Shown here: positions 4,146 to 61,828 of the stretch, piece after piece
How positions within the stretch are numbered: position 1 is the stretch's first letter
How the letters are laid out: the number at the start of each line of letters is the position of its first letter
Assembly: GCF_030538285.1 (NCBI RefSeq)
Contig: NZ_JAUNUG010000004.1
Location: 1 to 64,000, forward strand
DNA from: Corynebacterium sp.
GTDB lineage: Bacteria > Actinomycetota > Actinomycetes > Mycobacteriales > Mycobacteriaceae
Direction of reading: 5' to 3'
DNA: 64,000 nt
Made by a program: the position numbers and the translations under genes
The notes under the pieces: model-generated
What the model was told of the DNA's origin: nothing
What the model saw: only the letters and a program-made list of their open reading frames with translations
Databases searched by the model: none

Positions 4146-5315
4146 GTGTCAGCACCTGTCATCTCTGCGCCGAAAGCCCGCATGCGCTGGCCAGATGTGG
4201 CCAAGGGCCTGTCGATTATCGGAGTTGTTCTGCTGCATGTCAGTCTCGCCGTACCCGAGGGTATGGAGACGGTGGCGGCGAACATCAACCGCATCCTCGA
4301 CCCCCTGCGCATGCCCCTGTTCTTCATGGTGAGCGGGTTCTTCTCCGCGAAGGTGTTCGGTTTCACATTCCGGCAGCTGTTCCTGCGTCGCCTGTGGTTT
4401 TTCCTGGTGCCATATCTGCTGTGGGTGCCCATCGAACTGTGGTTCAAATTCCGCGAGTGGCAGATTTTTGACGGCAAAGAGATGCCGGGGCTGGGTACCT
4501 ATCTCGCGCACATTATTGAGGGCCGGAACATGTACTGGTTCCTCTATGCCCTCGTACTGTTCAACATCGTGCTGTGGGCCACCCGGAAACTGCCCTGGTG
4601 GGCGGGGATTCTCGTGGGTTTCGCACCGTTGCTCATCCTGCCTTTGCACACTGATCAGCACATGATCGGCAAGGCGGTGTTGTACCTGCCGGCTTTCCTG
4701 CTGGGTGCGCATTTCCGCCGGCACATCCGGCATTTCGCGGAGACGGCGACCAGCCTGCGTCACCTCACCCGCGCGACGATCCTGTATGCCGCCGGTTTCA
4801 CCGTGGCGGCCGTGTGGGCGTGGTGGAACACCGTGAATGATGTGTTATTGCCCTGGCCCCTGCCTTTCGCCGAGACCGTCGGCTACATCGATCTGCGTCT
4901 GCTGGTCAACTCCGTGGTGCAGTTGCTCATGCTGCCGATGGCGGTGTTGGTGGCGGTGCTGCTGGGCCGGACCCCAATCGTGGCCGATGTGCTGGCCTTC
5001 CTCGGCCGCCACACCCTGGTCATTTACCTGGGCCATCCCATCGCCCTGACGGTGCTGTACCACTACAACATGCGCGAGTGGCAGCTGCCGATTGCCCGCG
5101 GTGCGGAGAACATGCTCCATGACACCGCGCTGTGGATGGTCGCCGGTCTGCTCATTTCCGCGATCGGCTCCTATGGTCTGTGGTTGATCACCCGCGTCCC
5201 GTACTTGCGGTGGTCGATCATGCCCCCGCTGGTGGAGGGTGCTTATCGACGTCCCGCCAGCACCCGCGGCGAGATCGTCGCCGCGACGACCACCACGAGT
5301 GTCACCACGAGATAG
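4146..5315 (+). CDS. Acyltransferase-3 family multi-spanning membrane protein
   Basis: An integral membrane protein of about 389 residues with roughly ten hydrophobic segments. RWPDVAKGLSIIGVVLLHVSL at the N-terminus carries the family's R...H pattern, and a charged R-x10-R loop (FRQLFLRRLWF) follows the second segment. The family O-acylates sugars or other envelope molecules. GTG 4146 is chosen because GAGG (4134-4137) lies 8 bases upstream; GTG 4137 is an alternative. The last 73 bases overlap the convergent mptC gene. The substrate is unknown; the lipoglycan gene neighbourhood suggests an envelope glycan. Confidence 0.75.
   Translation: MSAPVISAPKARMRWPDVAKGLSIIGVVLLHVSLAVPEGMETVAANINRILDPLRMPLFFMVSGFFSAKVFGFTFRQLFLRRLWFFLVPYLLWVPIELWFKFREWQIFDGKEMPGLGTYLAHIIEGRNMYWFLYALVLFNIVLWATRKLPWWAGILVGFAPLLILPLHTDQHMIGKAVLYLPAFLLGAHFRRHIRHFAETATSLRHLTRATILYAAGFTVAAVWAWWNTVNDVLLPWPLPFAETVGYIDLRLLVNSVVQLLMLPMAVLVAVLLGRTPIVADVLAFLGRHTLVIYLGHPIALTVLYHYNMREWQLPIARGAENMLHDTALWMVAGLLISAIGSYGLWLITRVPYLRWSIMPPLVEGAYRRPASTRGEIVAATTTTSVTTR
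5241..5253. repeat. Dispersed 13-mer copy that provides the mptC stop codon
   Basis: GCTTATCGACGTC, one mismatch to the consensus GCTTATCGACGCC. On the plus strand it is read A-Y-R-R in the acyltransferase-3 gene; on the minus strand it contributes the mptC stop. It is one of 19 copies noted in this window. Confidence 0.75.
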
Positions 5316-6415
5316 CTCGTGCCGATGATCTGGGCCCACCAGGCCCAGTCGTGTTCGGCGCCGTGCGAATGCGGGAGGGTCCAGTGCGGGGCGATAAACG
5401 CTGCCGCTGCGACCACAGCCCCGAGGACGCGGTAGCCGCCGGCCAGCAGCGTGATCGCGATGGGAACCAACCACACCCAGTGGTGGGACCAGGAGATGGG
5501 GGAGCACACCAGCGCCACGGTCGACGCCAGCAGCACGGTGGCCAGCATCGTCTCAGCCCGCCACATGGCCCACACGATCAGGCCCAGCGCCACGAGAATC
5601 AGGCCCAGCCACAGCAGGGAATCGGCCCGCTCTCCGGGTTCGGCCAGGCGGGTGAGCACACCGCGGATCGACTGGTTGGAGGCATAAGCCTCCCCGCCGA
5701 TGCGCCCGGTGTCCGCCAGGGTGCCAAACCAGTATGTCCACGAGTTCCCCCAGCTGAGCAGGGCGGCCAGCAGTGTGAAACCTACCCCGGAGACAAACGT
5801 CACGGCCGCGTCGCGCCAGCGGCGCCGGACCAGGAAGACGAGGATGAACACCGCCGGGGTGAGTTTGATGGCGGCGGCGAAACCGATGAGCACACCACGG
5901 GGCAGCCTCGTGCGGCGGGTCAGGGTGTCTGCCAGCACCAAGGCCATGAGGACGATGTTGATCTGCCCGAATGCGAGGGTCTCCCGTACCGACTCAGTCA
6001 GCAGCGCTAGAGGAAGAAGCCAGGTGGCGAGGGTGCGGCGGTCGGCGTCGATAAGCAGCGGCGCCGCATGGCGCAGGACGATGCCGATGCACCACCACAG
6101 CAATACCACGGAACCCAGCGTCCATAACACCAGACCAACCGTGTACGGCAGGACCGCCAGGGGAATAGACAACATCGCCGCCAGCGGGGGATAGGTGAAC
6201 GGCAGGACGATGTCATCGGCCTTACCCACCACATAATCCTGTGTGTACAGGTTCTCCCCGGCCAGGAAAGCCTGTGCCCCCTTGCGGTAGACATCGAGGT
6301 CAGTGGCGTAGCGGAAGCCAGTCTCCAGATCAATGAGCCACGGCAGGGTAGCACCGACCGCAGCGAGCAGAGACAGGACCGTCAACACACGGCGGGTAGC
6401 AGGAGGGATGTTCAC
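5243..6415 (-). CDS. mptC: Polyprenyl-phosphomannose-dependent alpha-(1->2)-mannosyltransferase (MptC-like, GT87)
   Basis: A GT-C membrane glycosyltransferase of 390 residues with about ten hydrophobic segments. An Asp-rich first extracytoplasmic loop, YATDLDVYRKGAQAFLAGENLY, is typical of DUF2029/GT87. It would add alpha-1,2 mannose branches to lipomannan using decaprenyl-phosphomannose. GTG 6415 starts VNIPPATRRVL; longer in-frame starts run into the divergent exonuclease gene at 6479. Synteny with Rv2181 (near Rv2179c and aroG) supports MptC. The stop codon TAA (TTA at 5243-5245) is formed by a copy of the dispersed 13-mer. Confidence 0.72.
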   Translation of the reverse strand: MNIPPATRRVLTVLSLLAAVGATLPWLIDLETGFRYATDLDVYRKGAQAFLAGENLYTQDYVVGKADDIVLPFTYPPLAAMLSIPLAVLPYTVGLVLWTLGSVVLLWWCIGIVLRHAAPLLIDADRRTLATWLLPLALLTESVRETLAFGQINIVLMALVLADTLTRRTRLPRGVLIGFAAAIKLTPAVFILVFLVRRRWRDAAVTFVSGVGFTLLAALLSWGNSWTYWFGTLADTGRIGGEAYASNQSIRGVLTRLAEPGERADSLLWLGLILVALGLIVWAMWRAETMLATVLLASTVALVCSPISWSHHWVWLVPIAITLLAGGYRVLGAVVAAAAFIAPHWTLPHSHGAEHDWAWWAQIIGTSYLVVTLVVVVAATISPRVLAGRR

Positions 6416-6478: not shown

Positions 6479-8400
<1,922 letters not shown>

Positions 8401-8406
8401 TTCCCC

Positions 8407-8419
8407 GCTTATCGACGCC
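8407..8419. repeat. Intergenic copy of the dispersed 13-mer GCTTATCGACGCC
   Basis: An exact copy 6 bases after the aroG stop. Its last 6 bases form part of the left arm of the downstream hairpin. It lies outside coding sequence, so the repeat cannot be explained by codon choice alone. Confidence 0.8.
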
Positions 8420-8469: not shown

Positions 8470-10590
8470 CTAGGTGGTGAGGCGGACTGTGGAGTCGATG
8501 CGGGCGTCGTCGCCGGCTTCGGGGCGCTGGCGGGTGACTACTGCGCCGTCGGTGCCGCCGCGGGCTTTGAGCCCGACGGCTTCAAGGGCCTCACTGGCCT
8601 GTTCGGTGGTCATGCCGACCACGCTGGGGATGGTGACGCGCCCGGCGAGGGTGAGGGTGATCTCGGCGTCCTCGGGGTCGATGGTTTCACCGGCGGAGGG
8701 GCTGGTGCGGACCACGGTGTAGGGGCTGGCGCCCACGGCGCTGCGGTCGCGGCGGGTGTCGTCGACGGTGAACCCGGCGTCGGTGAGGGTGGCGGTTGCC
8801 TGTTCCTCGGTCATTCCCTCGACGTCAGGGACGGTCAGGCCGCTGTTGACCACGAGGGTGACTTCGCTGCCGCGGGTGAGGGTGGTGCCGGGATCGGGGG
8901 AGATGTCGAGGATCTGGTTGGCGGGGACGTCGGCGTCGAAACGCCGCTCTATGTTGGCGATGGACAGTCCCAGCTCTGCGAGACGGGCTTCGGCGGTCGC
9001 CAGGTCGGAACCCACGACGGAGGGGACCTGGATGGGCTCGGGCCCCCGGGAGAGATGCACGGTGACGGTGGTGCCGATCTTCACGGCTTCCCCGGCAGCG
9101 GGATCGGTTTCGGCGACGCGTCCCTCGGCGACGTCCTCTGACCAGACGGGGTCTCCGGTGGCGACTTTAAGGGTGCGGTCCTCGGCTGCGGCCTGGTAGG
9201 CGAGGACATCCATGCCGTGGGGCTCTGGCACGGTGGGGCGGCCCTGGGAGACGAGGACTGTTACCTCGTTGCCGCGGACGGTCTTTTCGCCGTCAGCGGG
9301 TTCAGTGCCTGCGCTGTGATCGGCGGGGACGTCGTCGTGGTAGATGATCTGGGTGACGGGCTGGAAACCGGCCTCCTCGACGGAGGTGATGGCGGTGGCC
9401 CGGTCCATGCCGAGTACCTGGGGGATTTCGCCGTAGCGGCCCGATCCGAACCACCAGGCGCCTACGGCGATGGCGGCGGTGAGTAGAGCAACCACCACCA
9501 GCCAGGCCACCAGCCCCACTCTGGAGCGGTTGCTCACGGGCGGGTCAGCGGGCTCGGCGGGTTCCTCCGCGGGAAGGCGGGCGGGGACGGGGGCCGGGGG
9601 TTCTGGTTGGAGTGCCTCGTGGACGCGGGTCTCAGTGGGGGAGGGCTCTGTGACCTCCGTGACCATGGTGGGCGGGCCGACCAGGTCGGTGATGTCGGTA
9701 GGCACGGCGGCCGCGCGGGTGGCTGCGGAGTTCTCCGGGACGGGGACGGTGAAGGCGGGGAGTTCCAGTTCACCGGCGACGTCGTCAAGCGCGGCCAGGA
9801 ACTCGGCGGCATCCGTGAAGCGATCCTCCGGATCGCGGGAGGTGGCGGTGGCGACGAGGGCGTCGATAAGCGGGGGAACGCCGGAAATACGCGAACTCGG
9901 GGCGGGAACATCATCCCGCAGACGCGCATAAGCGTGGTCGAGGGCGTCGTCGCCGGAAAACGGGGTGACGCCGGTGAGGAGCTCGAACAGTACGATGCCC
10001 GCGGAGTAGACATCCGAGGCGGGCGTGATGTCGGAGCCGTCGACCTGTTCGGGGGACAGGTAGGCGGCGGTGCCGACAATCTGGGAGGTGGTGGTCGCAG
10101 CGGTGGCCGCGCGCACCAGGCCGAAGTCCGCGAGCTTAACGCGGTGATCGGCGTTGATGAGCACATTGTCCGGCTTGATGTCGCGGTGCACCAGCCCGTT
10201 GGAGTGGGCGACGGACAGGCCGGTAAGCACCGAGCGCATCACCGCGGCGGCGGCATGCGGCGGCATGGGCCCACGTTCAGCGAGTAGCTCCCGCAGGGTG
10301 CCGCCGGTGATCAGCTCCATGATGAGGAACAGGTGGTCACCGTCGGAACCGAAGTCGTAGACATTGACCAGGTTAGGGTGATTGAGCTGGGCCATGGCGC
10401 GCGCTTCCCGGCGGAAACGCTGCCGGAAGACGGGGTCTGCGATGTACTTCTCATCGAGCACCTTGGCGGCCACCGCGCGGCCCAGCCGGAGGTCCACGCA
10501 GCGCCAGACCATGGACATTCCGCCGCGCGCGATCGGGTGATCGATGCGGTAACGGTCCTCGAGGAGGTCTCCCACTGCCAGTTGAGCCAT
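8470..10590 (-). CDS. pknL: Transmembrane Ser/Thr protein kinase with five PASTA repeats (PknL)
   Basis: A 706-residue sensor kinase. The cytoplasmic kinase domain has the glycine loop IARGGMSMVW, Lys43 in AAKVL, HRDIKPDN (catalytic Asp137) and DFG (Asp155). A Pro/Glu-rich linker leads to one membrane helix (VGLVAWLVVVALLTAAIAVG) and five extracellular PASTA repeats, each ending in a V-T-V/L-x-V strand. PASTA domains bind peptidoglycan fragments or lipid II. M. tuberculosis PknL lacks PASTA, so this is the corynebacterial form. ATG 10590 is chosen for a -10-like CATACT 6 bases upstream. Divergent from its probable substrate gene. Confidence 0.9.
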   Translation of the reverse strand: MAQLAVGDLLEDRYRIDHPIARGGMSMVWRCVDLRLGRAVAAKVLDEKYIADPVFRQRFRREARAMAQLNHPNLVNVYDFGSDGDHLFLIMELITGGTLRELLAERGPMPPHAAAAVMRSVLTGLSVAHSNGLVHRDIKPDNVLINADHRVKLADFGLVRAATAATTTSQIVGTAAYLSPEQVDGSDITPASDVYSAGIVLFELLTGVTPFSGDDALDHAYARLRDDVPAPSSRISGVPPLIDALVATATSRDPEDRFTDAAEFLAALDDVAGELELPAFTVPVPENSAATRAAAVPTDITDLVGPPTMVTEVTEPSPTETRVHEALQPEPPAPVPARLPAEEPAEPADPPVSNRSRVGLVAWLVVVALLTAAIAVGAWWFGSGRYGEIPQVLGMDRATAITSVEEAGFQPVTQIIYHDDVPADHSAGTEPADGEKTVRGNEVTVLVSQGRPTVPEPHGMDVLAYQAAAEDRTLKVATGDPVWSEDVAEGRVAETDPAAGEAVKIGTTVTVHLSRGPEPIQVPSVVGSDLATAEARLAELGLSIANIERRFDADVPANQILDISPDPGTTLTRGSEVTLVVNSGLTVPDVEGMTEEQATATLTDAGFTVDDTRRDRSAVGASPYTVVRTSPSAGETIDPEDAEITLTLAGRVTIPSVVGMTTEQASEALEAVGLKARGGTDGAVVTRQRPEAGDDARIDSTVRLTT

Positions 10591-10649: not shown

Positions 10650-11021
10650 GTGATTGACAATGACATCCCCCTGGAGACCTTGCTCGCCGACGAACCCATG
10701 CTGACCCTGCCGGAGACGGCGGACCGTCTCGGTGTGGTGATCACTCGCGTCCACGACCTGCTCAGCGCGAATAAACTCATCGCCTACGTCATCGACGGCA
10801 AGCGCCACGTCCCGGAGGCGCTGTTCCACGAGGGATCGGATTCGACCGGCAAGTTCGTGCCCGGACTGATCACCTTGCTTTCCGACGGTGGCTACACCGA
10901 CGAGGAGATCCTGCGCTACCTGTTCACCGCGGATGAGACTCTGCCGGGGCGGCCGGTGGATGCGTTGCACGGCCAGCTGGCGCGTGAGGTGCTGCGTCGC
11001 GCGCAGGCGATGGCGGTGTGA
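10650..11021 (+). CDS. Rv2175c-like helix-turn-helix protein, probable PknL substrate
   Basis: 123 residues. LTLPETADRLGVVITRVHDLLSANKLIAYVIDGKRHVPEA is an MerR-like winged helix-turn-helix with a wing, as in Rv2175c, a DNA-binding protein phosphorylated by PknL. The divergent pairing with pknL (59 bases between start codons) supports the same relation here; regulation by phosphorylation is inferred. GTG 10650 is preferred over GTG 10641 because TAGAGT (10637-10642) ends 7 bases before it, indicating a leaderless mRNA. The last 98 bases overlap the 3' end of mptA on the other strand. Confidence 0.8.
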   Translation: MIDNDIPLETLLADEPMLTLPETADRLGVVITRVHDLLSANKLIAYVIDGKRHVPEALFHEGSDSTGKFVPGLITLLSDGGYTDEEILRYLFTADETLPGRPVDALHGQLAREVLRRAQAMAV

Positions 11022-12429
11022 ACATCCACGAGGTGAGCACCCAGGCCAGGACGAACACGCCGGCCATCCACCACGTGTTGTAGAGCTGGTGGTTGCCTGA
11101 TCCTGTGAAGGACAAGGTGACCACGATGGAGGCGCCGACAGCCAGGCGCTGCACCCAGCCGGGCGGGCGCACCGTGCCGACGAGGGTGATCACCGAGGCG
11201 TAGTACCAGGGCAGCGTCACTGAGTTGAATACGAAAGCCACCTGGTAGGCCACGGCGCTTCCTGCGATGGCGCGCCGGGAATTCTGGCGGAACAGCCACC
11301 ACACGACGACCAGGCCGGCCAGCATGGCCACCATCGAGATGCTGCGCAGCGCTCCGAGCGCCTGGTTGTACTCGAAGCTGGGGTCCAAGACCTGCACCAC
11401 CCACGTCACCCAACTGGCGAGCAGGGAGGGCAGTGCCAGGGGATTGATCACCTTCGAGTTGCCGGAAATCTCGGACAGCCAACCCCACGAGGAGCCCGAC
11501 AGCCACGTCACGGCGGCGACCACCCCGAGGGTCTCCACCAGGCCGATGAACCCGGTGAGCAGGAATGCCAGGACCCGGTGCATGCGACGGGAGTAGTGGT
11601 GGGTGGCCAGCCACACGACAAACGGCAGCGCGATGGCGGCGGTCGCTTTGAGGGAGACTGCGACGGCGATGAGCGCCACGCCCAGTACGAAGCGCTTACG
11701 CAGGCAGGCGAGTAGGCCGATGCTGACCAACCCCACCATGACCGATTCGTTGTGCATGCCGCCGATCATGTGGAGGATCATCACGGGATTGGCCACACCC
11801 AGCCACAGGGCGAAGGCAGGATCCCCGCCGAGCTCGCGCGCGATGCGGGGTACCGCCCAGGCGATGGCCACGAATCCCGCTACGGAAATCAGTTTGTAAA
11901 CCAACACCCCGGCGGTGACGTTGTCGCCGACGAGCCGGGTGACCCCTTCGCCGATCCACAGGTGCAGTGGGCCGTAGGGGGTGGTGGTGTTGCGCCAGTC
12001 GTGGGAGACCTCCAACAGGAAGGGGCCGGGGTTGACGGCCGCGCCCTGCGTGTACGGGTCGAAACCGTCGCGCAGCATTGCGCCTTGCATCAGGTAGGAG
12101 TAGACGTCGCGGGAGAGCATCGGGGCGGCCAGGAGGAGCGGAATCGTCCAGGCCCACAGGGCTTTCTGTACCCGCTTCTCGACGCCCACCTCCCCCCGCA
12201 GCACGTGCCGTCGCCCGAGGATGACCCATCCGGCGAGCAGCAGCAGGATGCCACACCAGATGACCACGTTGGAGATACCCGCCCCGCGCCCGTAGGCGAG
12301 GAAATCAAGGTTGAGCGCCTCCAGGACACCGCCGCGGTTGCGGGTGGCGCCGCCGCCGAAGGATCCGAGCAGTAGTAGCACGGAGCCGATGATGCCGAGG
12401 GGGAGCGCGCCGGGGATGCGGATGGTCAT
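10924..12429 (-). CDS. mptA: Polyprenyl-phosphomannose-dependent alpha-(1->6)-mannosyltransferase MptA
   Basis: A GT-C glycosyltransferase of 501 residues with about 12 membrane segments. It extends the alpha-1,6 mannan core of lipomannan. LSRDVYSYLMQGAMLRDGFDPY holds the Asp of the GT-C motif, followed by TTPYGPLHLWI. Synteny (ids-mptA beside Rv2175c and pknL) matches Rv2173-Rv2176. The start is 4 bases after the ids stop, so both share an mRNA. The C-terminal tail rich in Pro and Ala is encoded antisense to the Rv2175c-like gene and may be dispensable. Confidence 0.85.
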   Translation of the reverse strand: MTIRIPGALPLGIIGSVLLLLGSFGGGATRNRGGVLEALNLDFLAYGRGAGISNVVIWCGILLLLAGWVILGRRHVLRGEVGVEKRVQKALWAWTIPLLLAAPMLSRDVYSYLMQGAMLRDGFDPYTQGAAVNPGPFLLEVSHDWRNTTTPYGPLHLWIGEGVTRLVGDNVTAGVLVYKLISVAGFVAIAWAVPRIARELGGDPAFALWLGVANPVMILHMIGGMHNESVMVGLVSIGLLACLRKRFVLGVALIAVAVSLKATAAIALPFVVWLATHHYSRRMHRVLAFLLTGFIGLVETLGVVAAVTWLSGSSWGWLSEISGNSKVINPLALPSLLASWVTWVVQVLDPSFEYNQALGALRSISMVAMLAGLVVVWWLFRQNSRRAIAGSAVAYQVAFVFNSVTLPWYYASVITLVGTVRPPGWVQRLAVGASIVVTLSFTGSGNHQLYNTWWMAGVFVLAWVLTSWMFTPPSPARDAAPHAPAGRATHPPAAPAESHPR

Positions 12430-12433: not shown

Positions 12434-13525
12434 TTAAGCGCGGCGGGCGGTGGCGCGATAGGCCAGGTCGGTGAGGGTGGCGGTGACCTCCGGCGACGTG
12501 CCAGCGGCGGCGAGGTGGGCGAGACCGGAGGTGGTCAGGGCGTCGATACGCTCCTCGATGGCTTCGACGGCGCCAGTCTCGGCGATGATCTGCGCCAGGC
12601 GGGCGATGGCTGTGGGGTCGGAGGTGGCGCCGATGCCGCGGCGGAGTTCGGCGGCGGCGGCCGGGTCGCGCTCGTCAGCACGCTGCAGGGCGGTGGCCAG
12701 CAGGACGGTGCGCTTGCCTTCCCGCAGATCATCACCTGCAGGCTTGCCAGTCACGGCGGGGTCACCGTAGACGCCGAGCTGGTCGTCGCGAAGCTGGAAA
12801 GCGATGCCGATGTCATGGCCGTAACCGCGGAAGGCGGCGATGGTGGCGTCGTCGGCGCCAGCGATGGCCGCGCCCAGGTGGAGGGGGCGTTCGATCGTGT
12901 AGGCGGCGGTTTTGAAGCGGTTCACGGAGTCAGCCAGCTCCACGTTTTCATCGGCGGAGGCCTCCAGGGCGATATCCAACAGCTGCCCGCCGATGACTTC
13001 CGTGCGCATTGCGCGCCACGGCTCGCGGGAGCGGCGCAGCGCGGCCTCGGACAATCTCGCGTCCTGGAGCATGTCTTCTGCCCACACCAGTGCCAGGTCG
13101 CCGACCAGAATGGCGACTGACTCACCGAAGTGTGCCGAGTCACCCGCCCAGGCCTGCCCGCGGTGATGCTTTTCGACGCTGCGGTGCACCGTCGGATTCC
13201 CGCGCCGCGTGTCTGAGGCGTCGATAATGTCATCGTGGATGAGGGCGCAGGCCTGGATGAACTCCAGCGACGCCGCGGCGCGGAGCATGGCGGCCGGGTC
13301 CTCGCCCGAATCCAGGCCGCCCCCGCCGACGAAACCGGCCCAGGCAAAGAGCGGGCGGATGCGCTTGCCACCGTCGAGGACGAAGGACTCCAGGTGGGAG
13401 ACCGCCTCGGTGACCGGGGCGCCGATGGCCGCCACCTGGCTGTGTCGCCTGTCGATGAACCGGGCGAGTTCCGCGCGGGCTGCAGCGGGGATCTGGTCGA
13501 GAGTCGGGATCTGGGGGTTGCTCAC
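12434..13525 (-). CDS. idsA: Polyprenyl (geranylgeranyl-type) diphosphate synthase
   Basis: A trans-prenyltransferase of 363 residues. The first Asp-rich motif is DDIIDASD and the second is DDQLGVYGD, with GGKRIRP for diphosphate binding. It builds C15-C20 (or longer) prenyl diphosphates for carotenoids, quinones or polyprenyl-phosphate carriers. Being upstream of mptA in one operon fits supply of lipid carrier to mannosyltransferases, although product length cannot be read off. GTG 13525 has TATCGT 8 bases upstream, another leaderless signature. The DDIID codons contain a diverged copy of the dispersed 13-mer. Confidence 0.85.
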   Translation of the reverse strand: MSNPQIPTLDQIPAAARAELARFIDRRHSQVAAIGAPVTEAVSHLESFVLDGGKRIRPLFAWAGFVGGGGLDSGEDPAAMLRAAASLEFIQACALIHDDIIDASDTRRGNPTVHRSVEKHHRGQAWAGDSAHFGESVAILVGDLALVWAEDMLQDARLSEAALRRSREPWRAMRTEVIGGQLLDIALEASADENVELADSVNRFKTAAYTIERPLHLGAAIAGADDATIAAFRGYGHDIGIAFQLRDDQLGVYGDPAVTGKPAGDDLREGKRTVLLATALQRADERDPAAAAELRRGIGATSDPTAIARLAQIIAETGAVEAIEERIDALTTSGLAHLAAAGTSPEVTATLTDLAYRATARRA

Positions 13526-16194: not shown

Positions 16195-17208
16195 ATGAGT
16201 GACATGAGCTTCGACATCACCGACAACCATGGCCACGTCCCCGTGCTGCGTGACCGGATGGCTGATTTGTTGGCGCCGGGCGTCGAGAAGCTCGGCCCGC
16301 GTGCGGTTATCGTCGACGGCACGCTCGGCGCTGGTGGGCACACCGAGCATTTCCTGCGCACGTTCCCGCAGGCGCATGTCATCGGCGTGGACCGTGACCC
16401 GCGTGCGCTGCGCGATGCCAGCGAGCGACTGGCTCCGTTCGGCGCGCGTTTCATCGGTGTGCAGACACGTTTCGACGGGGTGGGGGAGGTCATCGCCACG
16501 GGTGAGGGCCCCATCTTCGACCTGGCCCGCAGTCATGGCATTGCCGGCGCTCTCTTTGACCTCGGCGTCTCCTCGATGCAGCTGGACCAGGTGGAACGTG
16601 GTTTCGCCTATCGGACGGACGCCCCGCTGGATATGCGGATGGATCCGTCGACGACGAAGACGGCCGCCGACATCCTCAACACCTACAGCCACGGTGATCT
16701 GGCCCGCATCCTGAAGACTTATGGGGACGAGCGTTTCGCCGGGAAAATTGCTTCCGCGATTCTCCGGGAGCGGGACAAGGCTCCTTTTGATACCTCCGCC
16801 CGCCTGGTGGAACTGCTCTATGACACCATTCCCGCCGCCACCCGCCGCACCGGCGGGCACCCCGCGAAGCGCACGTTCCAGGCGCTGCGCGTCGAGGTCA
16901 ACGCTGAGCTGGAGGCACTGGAGCAGGTCCTGCCCATCATTACGGAGCTGCTCGCCGAAGGTGGGCGTGCGGTGTTCATGAGCTACCAGTCTCTGGAAGA
17001 TCGCATCGTCAAGCAGGCTTTCGCTGAGCTGACCACCTCTAAGACCCCGCCCGGTCTCCCCATGGATCTGCCGGGCACCGCCCCCCGTTTCGCCACGGTC
17101 ACCCGTGGCGCTGAGAAGGCCACCGAGGCCGAGATCGAGGACAACCCGCGGGCCGCCCCGGTGAGGGTGCGCGCCGTCGAGAAGCTTCCGGAAGGACCCC
17201 GACCGTGA
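16195..17208 (+). CDS. rsmH: 16S rRNA (cytosine-1402-N4)-methyltransferase RsmH
   Basis: 337 residues. [13 protein letters not shown] starts the protein; [14 protein letters not shown] is the SAM-binding glycine motif; [31 protein letters not shown] is the diagnostic RsmH/MraW block; [15 protein letters not shown] lies in the C-terminal part. It methylates C1402 in the ribosomal P site. GGGGG lies upstream of ATG 16195. It overlaps ftsL by 4 bases (GTGA). Confidence 0.95.
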
Positions 17209-37800: not shown

Positions 37801-38030
37801 CCGATGTCATCCGCGGCCTGCAGGATGCCCGCAAGGCCACCGGCCTGGAGGTCTCCGACCGCATCAACGTCCGCCTGTCCGTCCCGGAGGACAAGCTGGA
37901 GTGGGCGCAGCGTCACCGTGAGCTCATCGCCGGCGAGGTCCTGGCCCTGGAGCTGGACGTCACCACCGAGGACCTCGGCGAGGCACATGATGTGGTCAAG
38001 GGCGTGAAGGCGAACGTCGTCAAGCGTTGA
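34863..38030 (+). CDS. ileS: Isoleucyl-tRNA synthetase
   Basis: 1055 residues, class I. The HIGH-type motif is H69-Y-G-H72 in [13 protein letters not shown] and the KMSKS loop is K629-M-S-K-S633. [11 protein letters not shown] and the following insertion form the CP1 editing domain; [11 protein letters not shown] is typical of the long actinobacterial/eukaryotic-like form. ATG 34863 follows GAAGGAAAA; an in-frame GTG at 34851 lies within the ribosome-binding site. Expression is controlled by the T-box leader. The following exporter gene overlaps the stop by one base. Confidence 0.97.
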
Positions 38031-47393: not shown

Positions 47394-47947
47394 CCGGCCG
47401 CCGTAGTCTCGGGGCCCTGGCTGTCGTGGGGCTCTTAGGCGTGCTCATCCTCGGCTTCCTTGACGACGCCACGCACAAGCCCGTCCCACCGCAGGGCGAC
47501 ATGCTGGGCACCGAGTCCGGGGAAAGCTTCCTCGACTACTCCGATCGCGCCGAAAAGACGCTTCTCGACGCCCCCGACGACCAACCCGTCTACGCCCTCG
47601 CTACCTTCGCGGAGAGCCTGACGCCTGAGGAGGCAGGTGAGGTGCTGGCCGGGACCGAGCGCGTCAACGCCATGGTCGTGGCCCTGGCGGCTCCGTTCCC
47701 GCTGCCCGAGCCGGTCACGGGGGAGGATCGCGCGGACGTGTTCCAGCGCGAACTCGACCGCATCGGGGCATCGTTGCAGGGTGTCGGCAATGTTCCTACG
47801 CCGGAGCTTATCGACGCCGCCGTCATCCGCGACAACGGCGAAGTACTACGCACACTGTCCGAGCGGGAAGAGATCGCCACCATCGAGGCGCTGCCGGAGG
47901 ACGCCGCGTGGGGTCGCTTCGGCGTGCGACCGGTGGAAGTGCCGTAG
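47390..47947 (+). CDS. Small membrane-anchored protein, unknown function
   Basis: 185 residues. There is one N-terminal membrane helix ([18 protein letters not shown]), then an acidic extracellular domain of about 150 residues without recognised motifs. The ATG overlaps rluD (ATGA), so it is the third gene of the lspA-rluD unit. An exact dispersed 13-mer lies at 47806-47818 (E-L-I-D-A). Confidence 0.75.
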
Positions 47948-47956: not shown

Positions 47957-48505
47957 ATGCATTTGATCGCACCTACCGCTGATCTTCACTCATCCTGGCT
48001 GGCGGCCGCGAAAGAGTGGGGTGGTGAGCATCAGGACGGTGCCGCCATCCACCTGGCACGCCGCTACGGACTGGACCTGAACGACCCCGCCGACTTCGCC
48101 CGCTGGGTCGACGCCCTCAACTCCGAATTCGTACCCGAGGGGAGTGTCCCCGCCACGAACTACTGGATGCTCGAGGACGGTGAGTATGTCGGCGCGATCC
48201 AGCTGCGCCACACCCTCAACCGCTACGCCCTGGCGGAGTTGTTCGGGCACATCGGCTACGGAGTGCGGCCCACGGCGCGGGGCCGGGGCCTGGCCACCCG
48301 CGCGCTACGTGAGGTGCTGGCCGAAGCCCGCGCCCTCGGGCTGCACCGGGTGCTCATGTGCTGCCGGGAGGACAACGCGGCGTCGATAAGCGTCATCCGG
48401 AAGTGCGGGGGCGTGCTGGAGAACATCCGGCACGTCGACGAGTTCAGTCTCTCCCACGGGGTGTCGGTGCCGACCTGCCGCTTCTGGATCGAGACCGCCG
48501 GGTGA
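47957..48505 (+). CDS. GNAT-family N-acetyltransferase
   Basis: 182 residues. GYGVRPTARGRGLATRALREVLAEARALGLHRVLMCCREDNAASISVIRKCGG contains the acetyl-CoA-binding R-G-x-G-L-A motif and the N-x2-S region. It resembles YedL/ribosomal-protein-type acetyltransferases; the substrate is unknown. TAGGCT (47945-47950) overlaps the preceding stop and ends 6 bases before the ATG. The last 62 bases overlap rarD on the opposite strand. Confidence 0.82.
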   Translation: MHLIAPTADLHSSWLAAAKEWGGEHQDGAAIHLARRYGLDLNDPADFARWVDALNSEFVPEGSVPATNYWMLEDGEYVGAIQLRHTLNRYALAELFGHIGYGVRPTARGRGLATRALREVLAEARALGLHRVLMCCREDNAASISVIRKCGGVLENIRHVDEFSLSHGVSVPTCRFWIETAG

Positions 48506-49319
48506 GATCAACCAGGTAGATCGCCACGGCGATCCAGATGATGATGAACCCGACCCAGCGGGCGGGGGAGAGGTACTCCTGGGTGACAAACAGTGCCCAC
48601 AGCATCTGCATCGTCGGCGTCAGGTACTGGATCATGCCGATCGTGCTCAGCGGCAGCCGCTTGGCGGCCATGCCGAACAGCAGCAGCGGCAGCGTGGTGA
48701 TCAATCCCGACAGGACGAGCAACGTCGTGTGTGCGGGGCCTTCGGTGAGGAAGGTGCCGTCGATAAGCAGCAGGTAGATCAGCGCCAGCGGGGCAATGAC
48801 CAGGGTCTCCGCCGTGAGCGAGACGGTCGGGGAGACGGCCACCTGCTTTTTCACCAGGCCGTAGAGGCCAAAGGTGATCGCCATGCCCAGTGCCATGACC
48901 GGGGCCTGGCCGGACAGGAACGTCAACTGCAAAACGCCGACCGCCGCGATGACCACCGCCACCGTCTGGTATCGGTTGAGCCGCTCACCGAGAAACACCA
49001 CACCCAGCAGCACCGATAGCAGCGGGTTGATGAAATAGCCCAGCGCGGCGTCGGCGACATGCCCCGTGTTCACCGCCAGGACGTAGATGCCCCAGTTCGC
49101 GGAGATCAACGCACCGGCGGCGACCAGCAGCCCCCACGTGCGCCGAGAGGCCCGCCGCAACTGCCCCCAGCCCTTGAGTACCGTGAGCACCACCGACATG
49201 ATCACCGCGGTCCACAGGATACGGTGCGCCAGAATCTCCACCGGACCCGCCGGAAGCAGCAGTGGGAAAAACGCCGGGAACAGTCCCCACAGCAGGTAGG
49301 CGAGCAGGCCGAAGATCAT
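48444..49319 (-). CDS. rarD: RarD-type EamA transporter
   Basis: 291 residues, about ten membrane helices in two EamA repeats. [61 protein letters not shown] and ERL fit the RarD family. Substrate is not known. ATG 49319 has TAGGAT 6 bases upstream, a leaderless signature. It is divergent from dnaE. A dispersed 13-mer copy lies at 48756-48768. Confidence 0.85.
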
Positions 49320-49394: not shown

Positions 49395-52300
49395 ATGGCC
49401 AAGAACTCCTCCTTCGTCCACATCCACAACCACACCGAGTTCTCCATGCTCGACGGAATGGCGAAGATCGACATGCTCGCCGAGGAGGTCACCCGGCAGA
49501 ACATGCCGGCGGTCGGCATCACCGACCACGGCAACATGTTCGGCTCCGACGCCTTCTACCGCGCGATGACGAAGGCGGACATCAAGCCCATCATCGGCAT
49601 CGAGGCGTACCTGGCGCCGGAGAGCCGCTTCAACAAAAACCGCGTGCGCTGGGGTGAGCCGCACCAGAAGTCCGACGACGTTTCCGCATCCGGTGCCTAC
49701 CTGCACCAGACGATGATCGCGGAGAACGCCACCGGCCTGAAGAACCTGTTCTATCTCTCGTCGATGGCTTCCTATGAGGGCCAGCTGGGCAAGTGGCCGC
49801 GCATGGACGCCGAGCTCATCGCCGAGCGAGCCGACGGCATCATCGCCACCACCGGCTGCCCCTCCGGCGATGTGCAGACCCGCCTCCGCCTGGGGCAGTT
49901 CGACCAGGCGCTGGAGGCCGCCGCGATGTGGCAGGACATCTACGGCAAGGAGAACTACTTCCTCGAGCTCATGGATCACGGCCTGCACATCGAGCAGCGC
50001 GTGCGCCGGGAGCTGCTGGAGATCGGGCAGAAGCTCGACCTGCCGCCGCTGGTGACCAACGACTGCCACTATGTCCTTGAATCCCAGGCCCAGGCGCACG
50101 AGGCGATGTTGTGCGTGCAGACCGGCAAGACGATGAATGACCCGGACCGTTTCAAATTCGACGGCACCGGCTACTACATCAAGACCGCCGCCGAAATGCG
50201 CGCGCTTTTCGACGACATCGTCCCCGACGGATGCGACAACACCCTGCTCATCGCCGAGCGGGTGCAGGATTACGGTGAGATCTGGGAGTCCCACCCGCAC
50301 GACCGTATGCCCATCGCGGACGTCCCGGACGGTCACACGCCGACGACGTGGTTGCACCACGAGGTGATGGAGGGCCTGCGCGAACGCTTCAACGGCGGCG
50401 AGATCCCGCAGGACTACATCGATCGAGCGAACTACGAGATCGAGGTCATCGACATGAAGGGGTACCCGTCGTACTTCCTCATCGTCGCCGAGATCATCAA
50501 GCACGCCCGCTCGATCGGCATTTGGGTGGGCCCGGGTCGTGGTTCCGCCGCCGGCGCGCTCGTCGCCTACGCCCTGACCATCACCAATATCGACCCGATG
50601 GAACACGGTCTGCTCTTCGAGCGATTCCTCAACCCGGAACGACCCTCGGCACCCGATATTGATATCGACTTCGATGATCGCCGCCGCGGCGAGATGATCC
50701 GCTACGCCGCCGAACGCTGGGGCGAGGACAAGATCGCCCAGGTGATCACCTTCGGCACGGTGAAGACGAAGCAGGCGCTCAAGGACTCCGCGCGCGTGCA
50801 GTTCGGCCAGCCTGGTTACCAGATGGCCGACCGCATCACGAAGGAGCTGCCGCCGCCGATCATGGCGAAGGACATCCCCCTGTCCGGTATCACTGACCCC
50901 GAGCATGATCGCTACAACGAGGCCGGCGCGGTACGCACCCTCATCGAGTCAGACCCGGACGTGCGCAAGATCTATGAGACGGCCCGCGGCCTCGAGGGAG
51001 TCGTCCGCCAGGCGGGTGTCCACGCCTGTGCGGTGATCATGGCGTCCGTGCCACTGCTGGACCATGTGCCGATGTGGAAGCGCCCTGCCGACGGTGCACT
51101 GATCACCGGCTGGGATTACCCGGCGTGTGAGAACATCGGCCTGCTGAAGATGGACTTCCTGGGGCTGCGCAACCTCACTGTCATCGGTGACGCGCTGGCC
51201 AACATCAAGAAGAACCGCGGCATCGACCTCGACCTGGAAAACCTCGCCGTCGAGGACACGGAAACCTACGAACTGCTGGGCCGCGGCTCCACCCTGGGCG
51301 TGTTCCAGCTCGACTCCGGCGGCATGCAGGAACTGCTCAAGCGCATGCAGCCCACCGGCTTCAATGACATCGTTGCGTCGCTGGCGCTGTACCGACCGGG
51401 CCCGATGGGTGTCAACGCCCACCTCGACTACGCGGACCGTAAGAACGGCCGCAAACCGATCGAGCCGATCCACCCGGAACTCGGCGAGGCGTTGGAGGAC
51501 ATCCTGGAGGAGACCTACGGTCTCATCGTGTACCAGGAGCAGATCATGCGTATCGCGCAGAAGCTCGCGAACTACACGGCCGGTGAAGCAGACGGTTTCC
51601 GTAAGGCCATGGGTAAGAAGAAAGCGGAGGTCCTGGAGAAGGAGTACGCGAAGTTCTCCGAGGGCATGATCTCCAACGGTTTCGGCAAGGAAGCCATCAA
51701 GGCCCTGTGGGACACGATCCTGCCCTTCGCGTCCTACGCGTTCAACAAGTCGCATGCCGCAGGCTACGGCCTGGTGTCCTTCTGGACGGCCTACCTCAAG
51801 GCCCACTACGCCCCGGAGTACATGGCGGCACTGCTCACCTCGGTGGCGGACAAGAAAGACAAGTCCGCCATCTACCTCGCGGACTGCCGCCACCTGGGGC
51901 TCAAGGTGCTGCCCCCGGATGTCAACGAGTCGGAGAATGACTTCGTGGCGGTCGGCGAAGACATCCGTTTCGGTCTCGGGGCGATCCGCAATGTCGGTCA
52001 TGAGGTGGTGGACTCGATCGTCGAGACGCGGCGCACGAAGGGCGCGTACACGAACTTCTCCGATTATCTGGAGAAGATCGACCTGCTGCCCTGCAACAAG
52101 CGCATCACCGAATCCCTCATCAAGGGCGGTGCCTTCGACTCTTTGGGCCACCCGCGCAAGGGCCTCATGCTCATCCACGAAGACGCCGTCGATTCCGTCC
52201 TGGCGACGAAGAAGGCCGCCGACAAGGGCCAGTTCGATCTTTTCGCCGGTTTCGGTGCGGAGGAGGATGCCGCCACCAGCGTCTTCGCCATTGACATCCC

Positions 52301-52983: not shown

Positions 52984-54180
52984 ATGACCAACAAGATCCG
53001 CACCACCCATGTCGGCTCCCTGCCGCGCACCCCTGAGCTTCTCGACGCCAACCTCCGCCGCGCAGAACTGAGCGACGAGCAGTTCCACGAGATCCTCCAG
53101 ACCGCCGTCGACGAGGTCGTCCGCCGCCAGGTGGACATGGGCATCGACATCATCAACGAAGGCGAGTACGGGCACATCACCTCCGGCGCCGTCGATTACG
53201 GCGCCTGGTGGAACTACTCGTTTACCCGCCTCGGCGGGCTGACCATGACCGATGAGGATCGCTGGGCCAGCCAGGAAGCCGTGCGCTCCACCCCGGGCAA
53301 CATCCAGCTCACCTCTTTCTCTGACCGCCGCGACCGCGCCCTGTTCAACGAGGCTTATGAGGATCCGGAGTCCGGCATCTTCGCTGGCCGCGCCAAAGTG
53401 GGCAACCCCAAGTTCACCGGCCCCATCACCTACATCGGCCAGGATGAGGTCGACGCCGATGTCCAGCTCATGCGCAAGGCCATGGATGCCGCGGGTGCAC
53501 AGGACGGTTTCGTGGCCGCTTTGTCCCCGGGGTCCGCTGCCCGCCTGAAGAACGAGTACTACGCCACCGACGCCGAGGTCGTGTGGGCCTGCGCCGACGC
53601 CATGGCCCAGGAGTACAAGGCGATCACCGATGCCGGTTTCACCGTCCAGCTCGACGCCCCCGACCTCGCCGAGTCCTGGGACCAGATCAACCCCGAGCCG
53701 ACCCTCGACGATTACCGCGACTGGCTGCGCACCCGCGTCGACGCCATCAACCACTCGGTGCGTGACATCCCGAAGGAGCAGACCCGTCTGCACATCTGCT
53801 GGGGTTCCTGGCACGGCCCGCACGTCACCGACGTCGAATTCGGCGACATCATCGAGGAGATCCTGCGCGCCGAGGTCGGTGGCTTCTCCTTCGAGGGTGC
53901 CTCCCCGCGCCACGCCCATGAGTGGCGTGTTTGGCAGGAGCACCAGCTGCCGGAGGGTTCCCTGATCTACCCGGGGGTCATCTCGCACTCCACCAACGCC
54001 GTGGAGCACCCCCGCCTGGTGGCCGACCGCATCATTCAGTTCGCGGAGGTCGTTGGCCCGGAGAACGTCGTCGCCTCCACCGACTGTGGTCTTGGCGGTC
54101 GCCTCAACCACCAGATCGCGTGGGCGAAGCTGGAGTCCCTCGTCGAGGGCGCACGCATCGCCAGCGAGGAATTGTTCTAG
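52984..54180 (+). CDS. MetE C-terminal-domain-like (cobalamin-independent methionine synthase-type) enzyme
   Basis: 398 residues, matching only the catalytic C-terminal barrel of MetE. TTHVGSLPRTPELL begins the domain, INEGEYGH follows, and the zinc ligands appear as HICWGSWHG (His-x-Cys) and ASTDCGLGG (Cys). Relatives include methyltransferases of unknown acceptor and epoxyalkane:CoM transferase. The methyl donor is unknown. TACCAT (52971-52976) ends 7 bases before the ATG. A terminator follows. Confidence 0.85.
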   Translation: MTNKIRTTHVGSLPRTPELLDANLRRAELSDEQFHEILQTAVDEVVRRQVDMGIDIINEGEYGHITSGAVDYGAWWNYSFTRLGGLTMTDEDRWASQEAVRSTPGNIQLTSFSDRRDRALFNEAYEDPESGIFAGRAKVGNPKFTGPITYIGQDEVDADVQLMRKAMDAAGAQDGFVAALSPGSAARLKNEYYATDAEVVWACADAMAQEYKAITDAGFTVQLDAPDLAESWDQINPEPTLDDYRDWLRTRVDAINHSVRDIPKEQTRLHICWGSWHGPHVTDVEFGDIIEEILRAEVGGFSFEGASPRHAHEWRVWQEHQLPEGSLIYPGVISHSTNAVEHPRLVADRIIQFAEVVGPENVVASTDCGLGGRLNHQIAWAKLESLVEGARIASEELF

Positions 54181-54216: not shown

Positions 54217-54229
54217 GCTTATCGACGCC
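54217..54229. repeat. Dispersed 13-mer, exact copy in terminator spacer
   Basis: GCTTATCGACGCC between the MetE-like terminator and the stop of the convergent secreted-protein gene. Only the last base touches a stop codon, so it is essentially non-coding. Confidence 0.8.
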
Positions 54230-58703: not shown

Positions 58704-59417
58704 TTAAGGCGAAGTCACGTCGATCATGTAGTCGGCGATGCCGTGCGGATCGGCGAGGAAGTCTCGTAGAGCTCGGTAGGAGGTCGTCTCCTGCACGCCG
58801 ATGTCTTCGAGGATGCCGCCGTCAGCGGTGAACTCGTAGATCCGCGCGCCGGGTAGGGCCAGCAGTACGGGGGAGTGGGTGGCGATGATGAGCTGCGCAC
58901 CCGCTTGCGCGATCTGATGCAGTTCGGCGAGCAGTGTCATCTGGCGGATGAAGGAGAGTCCGGCTTCGGGCTCGTCGAGAAGAAACAGGCCCGCGCCGTG
59001 GAAGCTGTCCTGCACGATACGCAGGACCGATTCACCGTGGGAGAGGGCATAGAGATCGGTGTCGTGGGTGAGGTTGAACTGGCTGGCCACCCCGTAGTGG
59101 GCTTCGGCGCGCAGAAAGTGACCGTTCATCGCGCGCGGGCCACGCAGCAGGGTGGCGGCGTGGCGGAGCGGATTCTCCCGGCCGCCCGGCGCATCCCCGA
59201 AGGCCCCTCCGTGGGCGTTGAAACCCGCGCTCACGGCGATGCCCTCCAGGAGCGTTGACTTGCCGACGCCGTTCTCGCCGGTGAACAGGGTGATGGGTTG
59301 GCGGAGGTTGAGCCCGGAATCGCGAAGCAATGCCCGGAAGGCGGGGACGTCGTCGATCCAGGGCGGCCCGTCGGGGTGAAATGCGGGCCGGTAGCTGTGG
59401 ACGAAGAACTTGCTCAT
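58704..59417 (-). CDS. Compact ABC-type AAA ATPase, downstream copy
   Basis: 237 residues, one ABC-type ATPase domain: Walker A FTGENGVGKST, signature-like LSHGES, Walker B GLFLLDEPEAGLS and H-loop IIATHSPVLLALPGARI. No membrane or nuclease domain is attached. It is a paralogue of the gene directly upstream; both share EPEAGLS and THSP(V/I)LLALPGA. Its start overlaps the paralogue's stop. It is the third gene of a treZ-ATPase-ATPase unit on the minus strand. Confidence 0.8.
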   Translation of the reverse strand: MSKFFVHSYRPAFHPDGPPWIDDVPAFRALLRDSGLNLRQPITLFTGENGVGKSTLLEGIAVSAGFNAHGGAFGDAPGGRENPLRHAATLLRGPRAMNGHFLRAEAHYGVASQFNLTHDTDLYALSHGESVLRIVQDSFHGAGLFLLDEPEAGLSFIRQMTLLAELHQIAQAGAQLIIATHSPVLLALPGARIYEFTADGGILEDIGVQETTSYRALRDFLADPHGIADYMIDVTSP

Positions 59418-60109: not shown

Positions 60110-61828
60110 CTAGCGGCGCACGAGCGCGAACTCCCAGGGGCCCAGGCGCGTGTCATCGAGGCCGACCTCGGGGGAGGTAAAGGAGTAGATGAGCTCGCCG
60201 CCGAAGGGCGCAGTCACGTCCGCGTCGGAGAGGTTGGCCACTAGCAGGACATCATCCCATCCCATGGCCAACCACCCCTCGCCCGTCTCGACGAGCAGCT
60301 GCGAGAGGTCGGCGCGGGACAGGCCCAGCTCTCGGCGCAGGCGCAGCAGCTGCGTGTATGTGGCGTGGATCTCCTGCTGCTCCGCACCGAAATCCCAGTC
60401 CAGCTTCGAGGCCTCGAAGGTGGCGGGATCGGCCGGATCAGGGACCTCAGCATGGTCCCAGCCGGAACGGGCGAACTCACGCTTGCGGCCCTCGGAGGTC
60501 AGGCGGTTGAGGTTGTCGTCGGTGTGTGAGCAGAAGAAGGCGAAAGGTGTCTGCGCGCCGTATTCCTCACCCATGAACAGCATCGGGGTGTACGGCGAGC
60601 AGTAGATCACCGCGGCCTTGAGTATCTGCTGTTGCGGGGTGAGATTCATCGACGGACGGTCGCCCGAGGCACGGTTGCCGGTCTGGTCATGGGTGGTGGT
60701 GTAAGTGACCAGGCGGTGGGCCGGGATCGAGTTCACGTCGATGGGGCGGCCGTGGTGCCGTCCGCGGAAGGAGGAGTAGGTGCCGTCGAAGTAGAAACCG
60801 GCGCGCAGGGTCTTGGCCAGGGCGTCCAGCGAGCCGAAGTCCTCGTAGTAGGCGTGGTTCTCACCGGAGACGACAGTGTGCAGCGCGTGGTGGATATCAT
60901 CCACCCACTGGCCGGCCAGCCCGTAACCGCCGCCGTCGCGCCCGGTGATCAGGCGCGGATCATTCATGTCCGATTCGGCGATGATGTAGCGCGGCACACC
61001 CGTACGGGCCGTGACGTCATCGGCGACGTCCTGGATCTGCTCCATGATCGAGTAGGCACCGGTGTCATCGAGGGAGTGGACGGCGTCGAGACGCAGGCCG
61101 TCAATGCGGTAGTCATCCAGCCACAGGCGCACCGCGTCGAGAATGAACGCGCGGACCTCATCGGACTGCGGCCCGGAAATGTTGACCACCTCACCCCAGC
61201 CGGTGGAACCACCCGCGGTGTAAGGGCCGAACATACCGTTGTAGTTGCCGTCGGGGCCGAAGTGGTTGTACACGACGTCGAGGATGACGCCGATGCCGAC
61301 GGCATGCGCGGCGTCGATAAGCTTCTTGAGACCCTCCGGACCGCCGTAACCTGCGTGGACGGCATGCCAGGTGACACCGTCATAACCCCAGTTGCGCTCG
61401 CCGCCGAAGGGCTGGACGGGCATGAGCTCAATGGCGGTGACCCCGAGATCCTTGAGGTAACCCAACTTCCCGATCACCCCGTCGAACGTCCCCTCCGGGG
61501 TGAACGTGCCCACGTGCAGTTCGTAGATGACCTGCCCCGCCAGCGGACGCCCCGTCCACTCGGCGGCCCAGTCGAAGGCCGGATCAACCACTTCGCTTAA
61601 ACCGTGGACACCGTCGGGCTGGGCCTGGCTGCGCGGATCGGGGAGGGGCTTGGACCAGTCGGTGCCGTCGAAAAGCTCGAAACCATAGCGCATCCCCGGC
61701 TCCGCGATGCGGTCGGCGACCCACCACCCGCCGGAGGATTCCTGCATGGGGATCTCTGCATCAGCGAGGCGGAGGCGGACATCCTGGGCGAAGGGGGCCC
61801 ACACGGAAAACGGTTCATGCGCAGTCAT
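60110..61828 (-). CDS. treZ: Malto-oligosyltrehalose trehalohydrolase
   Basis: 572 residues, GH13 family. It has an N-terminal CBM48-like domain (FSVWAPFAQDVRLRL) followed by the barrel: VIYELHVGTFTPEGTF, DVVYNHFGPDGN, GLRLDAVHSL (nucleophile Asp), IIAESDMNDPR (acid Glu) and TTTHDQTGNRA. With TreY it makes trehalose from glycogen/maltodextrin. TAGCCT (61841-61836) lies 7 bases before ATG 61828. An exact dispersed 13-mer lies at 61310-61322 (K-L-I-D-A). Confidence 0.94.
   Translation of the reverse strand: MTAHEPFSVWAPFAQDVRLRLADAEIPMQESSGGWWVADRIAEPGMRYGFELFDGTDWSKPLPDPRSQAQPDGVHGLSEVVDPAFDWAAEWTGRPLAGQVIYELHVGTFTPEGTFDGVIGKLGYLKDLGVTAIELMPVQPFGGERNWGYDGVTWHAVHAGYGGPEGLKKLIDAAHAVGIGVILDVVYNHFGPDGNYNGMFGPYTAGGSTGWGEVVNISGPQSDEVRAFILDAVRLWLDDYRIDGLRLDAVHSLDDTGAYSIMEQIQDVADDVTARTGVPRYIIAESDMNDPRLITGRDGGGYGLAGQWVDDIHHALHTVVSGENHAYYEDFGSLDALAKTLRAGFYFDGTYSSFRGRHHGRPIDVNSIPAHRLVTYTTTHDQTGNRASGDRPSMNLTPQQQILKAAVIYCSPYTPMLFMGEEYGAQTPFAFFCSHTDDNLNRLTSEGRKREFARSGWDHAEVPDPADPATFEASKLDWDFGAEQQEIHATYTQLLRLRRELGLSRADLSQLLVETGEGWLAMGWDDVLLVANLSDADVTAPFGGELIYSFTSPEVGLDDTRLGPWEFALVRR

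Follow-up and report, generated by a model that had tools for sequence, protein, structure and literature searches.

A dispersed motif with dialects in Corynebacterium genomes is probably a DNA uptake sequence

Known uptake-sequence systems lie in Gram-negative families. A 2025 paper names only the Neisseriaceae and Pasteurellaceae as known to discriminate DNA by uptake sequences (PMC12616744). In both families these sequences are described as occurring near once per kb, without orientation bias, in clade-specific types and with many perfect copies (PMC1626085, PMC3630211), and as absent from recently acquired genes (PMC2397512). In Micrococcus luteus, an actinobacterium, transformation is reported to depend on Flp/tad pili (PMC4322843). 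The present analysis concerns a motif with the consensus GCTTNNCGACG, dispersed through a stretch of 64 kb (the window: positions 1..64,000 of contig NZ_JAUNUG010000004.1, assembly GCF_030538285.1) from Corynebacterium sp. The motif is most probably a DNA uptake sequence, by which naturally transforming cells would recognise DNA of their own kind, and would make up a probable new and independent uptake-sequence system in Gram-positive bacteria.

The DNA uptake sequence (DUS) of Neisseriaceae, described as an asymmetric motif of 10-12 bases in thousands of copies, is similar in its dialects, which follow species groups around a constant core, and in the existence of a genome with two dialects (PMC3630211), as in Corynebacterium genome G143. 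The uptake signal sequence (USS) of Pasteurellaceae, in its Hin and Apl types, has a 9-base core with ANNNGCGGT common to both types and is likewise near one copy per kb, unbiased in orientation, rich in perfect copies and split into two clade-specific types (PMC1626085). The Corynebacterium motif, a candidate uptake sequence, is unrelated in sequence to either. Unlike the USS, it shows no strong flanking segments up to 12 bases away when copies from four genomes are aligned. Unlike the DUS, it occurs in a Gram-positive host whose pilus genes are of the Tad/Flp and not the type IVa kind, and no ComP-like receptor was found among the Corynebacterium proteins inspected. M. luteus shares with Corynebacterium comEA/comEC and genes of the tadA-B-C-flp-tadE type; it is described as needing two tad clusters, whereas in Corynebacterium a single cluster was read in each genome, and the phrase 'uptake sequence' does not occur in the main text of that paper (PMC4322843).

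Motif unit, abundance and maintenance

The source genome comprises 2,953,577 bases in 94 contigs (listed completeness 96%, contamination 6.7%). A sequence-only reading of the window had reported at least 19 copies of a 13-mer, 11 exact, seven with one mismatch and one with two. These grades recur on recounting, all 19 positions contain the inner 9-mer TTATCGACG, and a twentieth copy had been overlooked (Table 1). Its estimate that the 9-mer is expected well below once per window agrees with the 0.23 copies computed from dinucleotide shuffles, 100 of which hold at most 2 against the 20 found. Genome-wide, TTATCGACG occurs 459+465 = 924 times and its reversed control 3+3 = 6 times. At up to two mismatches the 13-mer matches the window 52 times versus 2.06 expected.

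The 13-mer is real as a dispersed motif but forms only one subset of a looser unit, CTTNNCGACG, mostly preceded by G. The window holds 48 copies of this unit, 26 on the plus and 22 on the minus strand (reversed control 3), and the source genome holds 1147+1144 = 2291 (reversed control 79+101 = 180), or about once per 1.3 kb over 2.95 Mb. Word counts and aligned contexts give the consensus a G-CTT-NN-CGACG layout, with the G present before 85-91% of copies in four genomes. The commonest form in the source genome is GCTTATCGACG, and the own-dialect tag word is written out as GCTTATCGACGCC. Aligned contexts indicate that the two inner bases depend on the species: AT (122 of 308), then CT (66), lead in a 391-kb sample of the source genome, and GC, GA, AA or TA are the chief pairs in genome G099, placed with C. 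amycolatum on the tree described below. One single-mismatch form, GCGTNNCGACG, occurs 60 times versus 11 expected in a source-genome sample that includes the window, which suggests a tolerated base at position 3.

Codon shuffling separates selection on DNA from selection on protein. Synonymous codons were permuted within each of 378 script-called genes in 431 kb of the source genome, with 20 repeats. CTTATCGACG occurs 114 times in these genes versus 6.4 after shuffling (sd 2.4, max 11), and CTTNNCGACG 290 times versus 57.6; in samples of four further genomes the own-dialect word reaches 4.3 to 7.8 times its shuffled counts. A by-product of codon or amino-acid usage could draw on the commonest frame, Leu-x-Asp (54 of the 114 coding copies of CTTATCGACG), and on the ratios of up to 2.6 times control seen in the family outside Corynebacterium, which might reflect such usage. 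Shuffling refutes this explanation for the source genome, where the motif is equally common in non-coding DNA (CTTATCGACG at 4.5 per 10 kb versus 3.0 in genes, CTTNNCGACG at 8.1 versus 7.7), and it is scarcely credible overall. The frame that would create a stop codon holds no copies among the coding CTTATCGACG of this sample.

Replichore polarity is absent from the closed genome G149, where 22 stretches give strand counts of 72:65 (first ten) and 80:76 (last twelve). A polar replication or segregation signal of the KOPS, Chi or AIMS type would share the motif's short, abundant and asymmetric character; the lack of strand bias argues against such signals, contradicts them in that genome and leaves this explanation highly improbable. 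Among the roles put forward in the sequence-only reading, an uptake-type sequence fits best and a segregation signal is disfavoured.

Dialects and distribution in the genus

A gapped-word search reveals a second dialect, GCTTNNCGATG, which replaces the CGACG form in several motif-poor genomes. CTTNNCGATG reaches 850-1667 copies in eight of 151 Corynebacterium genomes and 52-378 in the other 143. Genome G143 holds both dialects, with 1667 copies of CTTNNCGATG and 540 of CTTNNCGACG; in the CGATG genomes G138 and G143, CTTNNCGACG stands at 1.7 and 2.7 times control. On a quick LepA and HolA tree of 90 loci, midpoint-rooted and with 26 of 86 inner branches weak, the CGACG dialect lies either side of the drawn root. 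The CGATG dialect is found in a clade sister to the tuberculostearicum clade, and also in G053, G094, G111 and G144. The records in that sister clade are Corynebacterium sp. KPL1814, ACRPS and MSK130 and one uncultured; we take it to be of the accolens type and name it so. Motif-poor species are partly clustered on the tree.

The one-base difference between dialects was followed between 422 kb of C. tuberculostearicum and 422 kb of KPL1814, over 304,898 aligned bases at 79.3% identity and at sites of conserved context. From C. tuberculostearicum to KPL1814, CTTNNCGA(C/T)G sites change from C to T 53 times and from T to C never, with C kept at 14 and T at 19; changed context removed 38 of the 107 C-sites and 16 of the 36 T-sites in C. 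tuberculostearicum from the comparison, and a base G removed another 2 and 1. Control CGA(C/T)G sites without CTT show 78 C-to-T and 42 T-to-C changes, with C kept at 124 and T at 355. The asymmetry in direction differs from control at p = 1.6e-8, and the 53 sites fall in 35 separate 5-kb bins on both strands. With frames assigned by the longest open frame, all 44 C-sites in the silent GAC/GAT (Asp) frame have switched, versus 63 of 110 control sites, as have all 3 sites of the antisense silent frame and one site in another frame. Frames in which the change would alter protein mostly kept C (Val 10 of 15, Thr 3 of 3, antisense Arg 1 of 1), so that the switch took place where the protein permitted it. 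Eight pairs across both groups, aligned over the lepA region, each show 5 to 9 C-to-T sites and no kept C. Together with the shuffles, this joint switching of homologous sites bears out the proposal that selection acts on DNA rather than protein.

Concerted switching also bears on a dispersed binding site for a cytoplasmic nucleoid-organising or chromosome-marking protein, with each site selected singly. HIP1 of cyanobacteria, a palindrome, is a short motif enriched genome-wide and of debated role; the Corynebacterium motif resembles it in its genome-wide spread and differs in not being palindromic. Such a binding site would accord with spread without polarity, with maintenance against codon shuffling, with spacing that is more regular than chance in two of three genomes and with the lack of a link between the motif and the presence of competence genes. 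It would need selection site by site to convert 44 of 44 silent Asp sites, whereas an uptake bias would act on all of them at once, and in six of the 50 named species the motif does not rise above background. To our knowledge neither HIP1 nor any nucleoid site has dialects of this kind, and this explanation is unlikely.

A methylation or restriction recognition site would suit the two-part GCTT-NN-CGACG shape, which resembles gapped recognition sites. By itself it does not explain about two thousand copies (about twelvefold over reversed control) or single-base dialects shared by clades, and we know of no restriction system with either property. The odds of such a site are very slight.

Strong motif excess is limited to Corynebacterium among 31 genera of the family. 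In a survey of 101 genomes, the 95 from outside Corynebacterium range from 0.36 to 2.61 times reversed control (median 1.35), and of the six Corynebacterium genomes four stand at 7.6 to 12.7 times and two at 0.97 and 1.34. The larger set of 151 Corynebacterium genomes holds 45 to 2314 copies of CTTNNCGACG; 103 genomes are at or above three times control (max 15), 37 below 1.5 times and 11 between. Many corynebacteria carry the motif at hundreds to two thousand copies per genome, with dialects by species group. Counting in relatives and against shuffled codons, both checks proposed along with the sequence-only reading, leaves its claim standing: an excess is present in the first and persists in the second.

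Named genomes were found through 80 lepA loci, and GCTTNNCGAYG was counted in 50 of them. Thirty-six are at five times control or more (242 to 1969 copies), among them C. pilosum, C. lactis, C. amycolatum, C. stercoris, C. glaucum, C. propinquum, C. pseudodiphtheriticum, C. minutissimum and C. tuberculostearicum. Six are at or below 1.5 times (C. spheniscorum, C. sp. 13CS0277, C. mendelii, C. dentalis, C. jeikeium and C. sp. ACRPH), and eight lie between. Labels of named loci are based on about 3 to 22 kb each, and some motif-poor labels from about 20 kb belong to genomes that are motif-rich throughout, such as C. alimapuense and C. lubricantis.

Simple loss was considered for the 37 motif-poor genomes and rejected, since six carry the CGATG dialect instead; this dialect accounts for these six and not for the other 31. 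A gapped-motif search in motif-poor groups yielded no other enriched motif that could be followed. The 21.9-kb C. otitidis locus L185 (GC 0.71) contains CTCNNCGACG 38 times, which could reflect a further dialect or the effect of high GC on codons. In 43.7 kb of loci from C. sp. zg-331 and C. mendelii, the palindrome TCGANNNNNTCGA is counted 28 times, with both strands scanned, versus 2.3 expected.

Four Corynebacterium phages of 42.0, 43.2, 45.8 and 41.4 kb hold 4, 1, 9 and 8 copies of CTTNNCGACG. The total of 22 in 172 kb is below that of motif-rich chromosomes, a comparison with chromosomes generally rather than with the hosts of these phages.

Competence and pilus genes

Genes expected of natural transformation are present throughout. 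Matches were found for comEC in 151 of 151 genomes, for T2SSE (the TadA-type ATPase) in 50 of 50 and for dprA in 40 of 40. An array of comEA-comEC-holA lies near rpsT-lepA, and comEC falls in the fetched stretch of 70 of the 80 named loci. lepA is annotated as such in matching records; holA, rpsT and topA are the names we assume for other genes at the comEC locus. ComEA (TIGR00426) and ComEC (TIGR00360) pass NCBIfam cut-offs, and the full-length models TIGR01259 and TIGR00361 are not passed. In motif-rich genomes a cluster tadA-tadB-tadC-flp-tadE-TadE-like adjoins a DECH helicase. TadA (TIGR03819), the helicase (TIGR03817) and the TadE-like protein (TIGR03816) score above their NCBIfam cut-offs; TadE (NF041390) falls below its cut-off, and TadB, TadC and Flp, which have no NCBIfam match, are named by T2SSF and position. 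The cluster is at least partly present in the motif-poor genomes G014, G148 and G039, the last without a TadE-like match.

Loss of competence genes was rejected as the cause of motif absence, given that comEC, T2SSE and dprA occur in motif-poor genomes too. Their presence in every genome examined therefore does not explain where the motif is missing; found with or without it, the uptake genes permit an uptake explanation and do not prove one. T2SSF has no match in eight of 151 genomes, including G028, G073, G128 and G146, all below 1.5 times control, and G024 at 1.57. In the motif-poor clade of C. jeikeium, ACRPH and C. dentalis, the best T2SSE match begins at profile position 60, 92 and 100, respectively. 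The motif-rich CGATG genome G006 has an interrupted tadA-like frame (L097, about 7378-8754), with 159 aa open where the match starts. The tad clusters of the two dialect groups look alike by eye. A conserved N-terminal segment of ComEA is found at 31 of 41 loci with the C dialect, 8 of 9 with the T dialect, 11 of 24 that are motif-poor and 1 of 5 that are unclear; no clean link is visible.

The motif might also be a relic, the uptake sequence of an ancestral competence system disused in most present species. Some species stand at background level, and several of these form groups on the tree; G006 combines a motif-rich CGATG genome with its interrupted tadA frame, as a relic would allow. Decaying sites would be mostly mismatched, and the near-equality of perfect and single-mismatch copies over the nine specified bases in the source genome (291:309 = 0.94, with 27 mismatch words possible) speaks against decay. 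Three further motif-rich genomes give ratios of 0.89, 0.70 and 0.53, and 101 kb of a motif-poor group yield 52 mismatched copies and no perfect one. Silent sites, moreover, show a complete switch between the tuberculostearicum and accolens groups. A relic is accordingly a very unlikely explanation.

Table 1. Motif copies in the 64-kb window
Word	Positions	Strand	Remark
CTTATCGACG	744..753	-	overlooked in the sequence-only reading (13-mer span 742-754)
CTTGCCGACG	2046..2055	+	
CTTCTCGACG	2316..2325	+	
CTTATCGACG	5242..5251	+	
CTTATCGACG	6046..6055	-	exact 13-mer
CTTGTCGACG	6902..6911	+	
CTTATCGACG	8408..8417	+	exact 13-mer
CTTGACGACG	9780..9789	-	
CTTATCGACG	9861..9870	-	exact 13-mer
CTTTCCGACG	10878..10887	+	
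CTTCTCGACG	12175..12184	+	
CTTCGCGACG	12784..12793	-	
CTTTTCGACG	13169..13178	+	
TTATCGACG	13219..13227	-	degenerate copy, without leading C
CTTCTCGACG	16281..16290	-	
CTTCTCGACG	17175..17184	-	
CTTCGCGACG	18823..18832	+	
CTTATCGACG	20226..20235	+	
CTTATCGACG	21541..21550	-	
CTTATCGACG	24290..24299	+	exact 13-mer
CTTATCGACG	24745..24754	-	exact 13-mer
CTTGCCGACG	26200..26209	+	
CTTTCCGACG	29827..29836	-	
CTTCTCGACG	31724..31733	-	
CTTATCGACG	32369..32378	+	preceded by A
CTTGGCGACG	36729..36738	+	
CTTGACGACG	38015..38024	-	
CTTTTCGACG	38105..38114	+	
CTTATCGACG	38590..38599	-	exact 13-mer
CTTATCGACG	39667..39676	+	
CTTATCGACG	42006..42015	-	preceded by A
CTTATCGACG	42528..42537	-	exact 13-mer
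CTTCTCGACG	43482..43491	-	
CTTCTCGACG	44665..44674	+	
CTTCTCGACG	45207..45216	-	
CTTGTCGACG	46599..46608	+	
CTTGACGACG	47459..47468	+	preceded by C
CTTCTCGACG	47561..47570	+	
CTTATCGACG	47807..47816	+	exact 13-mer
CTTATCGACG	48381..48390	-	exact 13-mer
CTTATCGACG	48758..48767	-	
CTTTTCGACG	50205..50214	+	
CTTCTCGACG	53038..53047	+	
CTTATCGACG	54218..54227	+	exact 13-mer
CTTCTCGACG	58973..58982	-	preceded by T
CTTGCCGACG	59259..59268	+	preceded by A
CTTATCGACG	61312..61321	-	exact 13-mer
CTTTTCGACG	61666..61675	-	
CTTTACGACG	62146..62155	+	

A candidate uptake sequence and its consequences

The Corynebacterium motif matches DUS and USS in length, abundance and lack of orientation preference. 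Depletion in foreign DNA apart, on which the phages and C. tuberculostearicum point different ways, it has those of their sequence-level features that were examined, and on that ground it is taken as a probable uptake sequence. From these features we infer uptake, a receptor and drive by recombination. Tagged DNA would be preferred by a receptor on the cell surface, belonging to the Tad/Flp pilus or the ComEA pathway, and a pilus would pull such DNA to ComEA/ComEC; DprA would then pass the incoming DNA to RecA, and homologous recombination would install the tag-bearing allele in the chromosome. Biased uptake of this kind would let tagged alleles accumulate genome-wide at permissive places on both strands. 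Were the preference of the receptor to shift, the whole set of sites would follow, giving dialects such as the change from CGACG to CGATG.

Several observations weigh against an uptake sequence. Non-coding DNA is denser in the motif than genes only in the source genome; it is sparser in the four other samples, with own-dialect densities per 10 kb (non-coding/genes) of 6.2/6.7, 5.6/7.9, 2.3/3.8 and 2.4/4.8. In C. tuberculostearicum, DNA outside the aligned places is not motif-poorer (of 163 copies in the 422-kb sample, 107 lie at ungapped positions within the 305 kb aligned). The six background species of the named-genome survey all have a T2SSE match and dprA, and G071, G075 and G119 (53% complete) lack a T2SSF match and are motif-rich. 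Inspection by eye of ComEA, Flp, TadE and TadE-like proteins from a few species revealed no dialect-specific feature of a receptor. Closely spaced inverted pairs, seen as terminators with the Neisseria DUS, are few (5 and 4). Judged by title or the start of the abstract, no report of an uptake sequence or natural competence in Corynebacterium appears among the matches listed, most subscription journals and bioRxiv being outside the scope of the search. A search for the motif letters as text likewise found no publication reporting the motif, by title or the start of the abstract, among the matches listed.

These points notwithstanding, Corynebacterium is likely to hold an independent uptake-sequence system: a third known lineage, the first in Gram-positive bacteria with a mycolic-acid coat, probably read by a pilus of the Tad/Flp type, its dialects keeping two commensal sister groups, the tuberculostearicum and accolens types, in gene pools that are partly separate. 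If so, the motif would be the first uptake tag known outside two Gram-negative families, and self-tagged transformation would evolve repeatedly, perhaps without a type IVa pilus. Many corynebacteria would be naturally transformable, with transformation widespread and unrecognised in the genus, and tagged DNA would offer a handle for corynebacterial genetics. Sister groups whose dialects differ by one base would provide a natural experiment on how a receptor changes jointly with some thousand sites in the genome.

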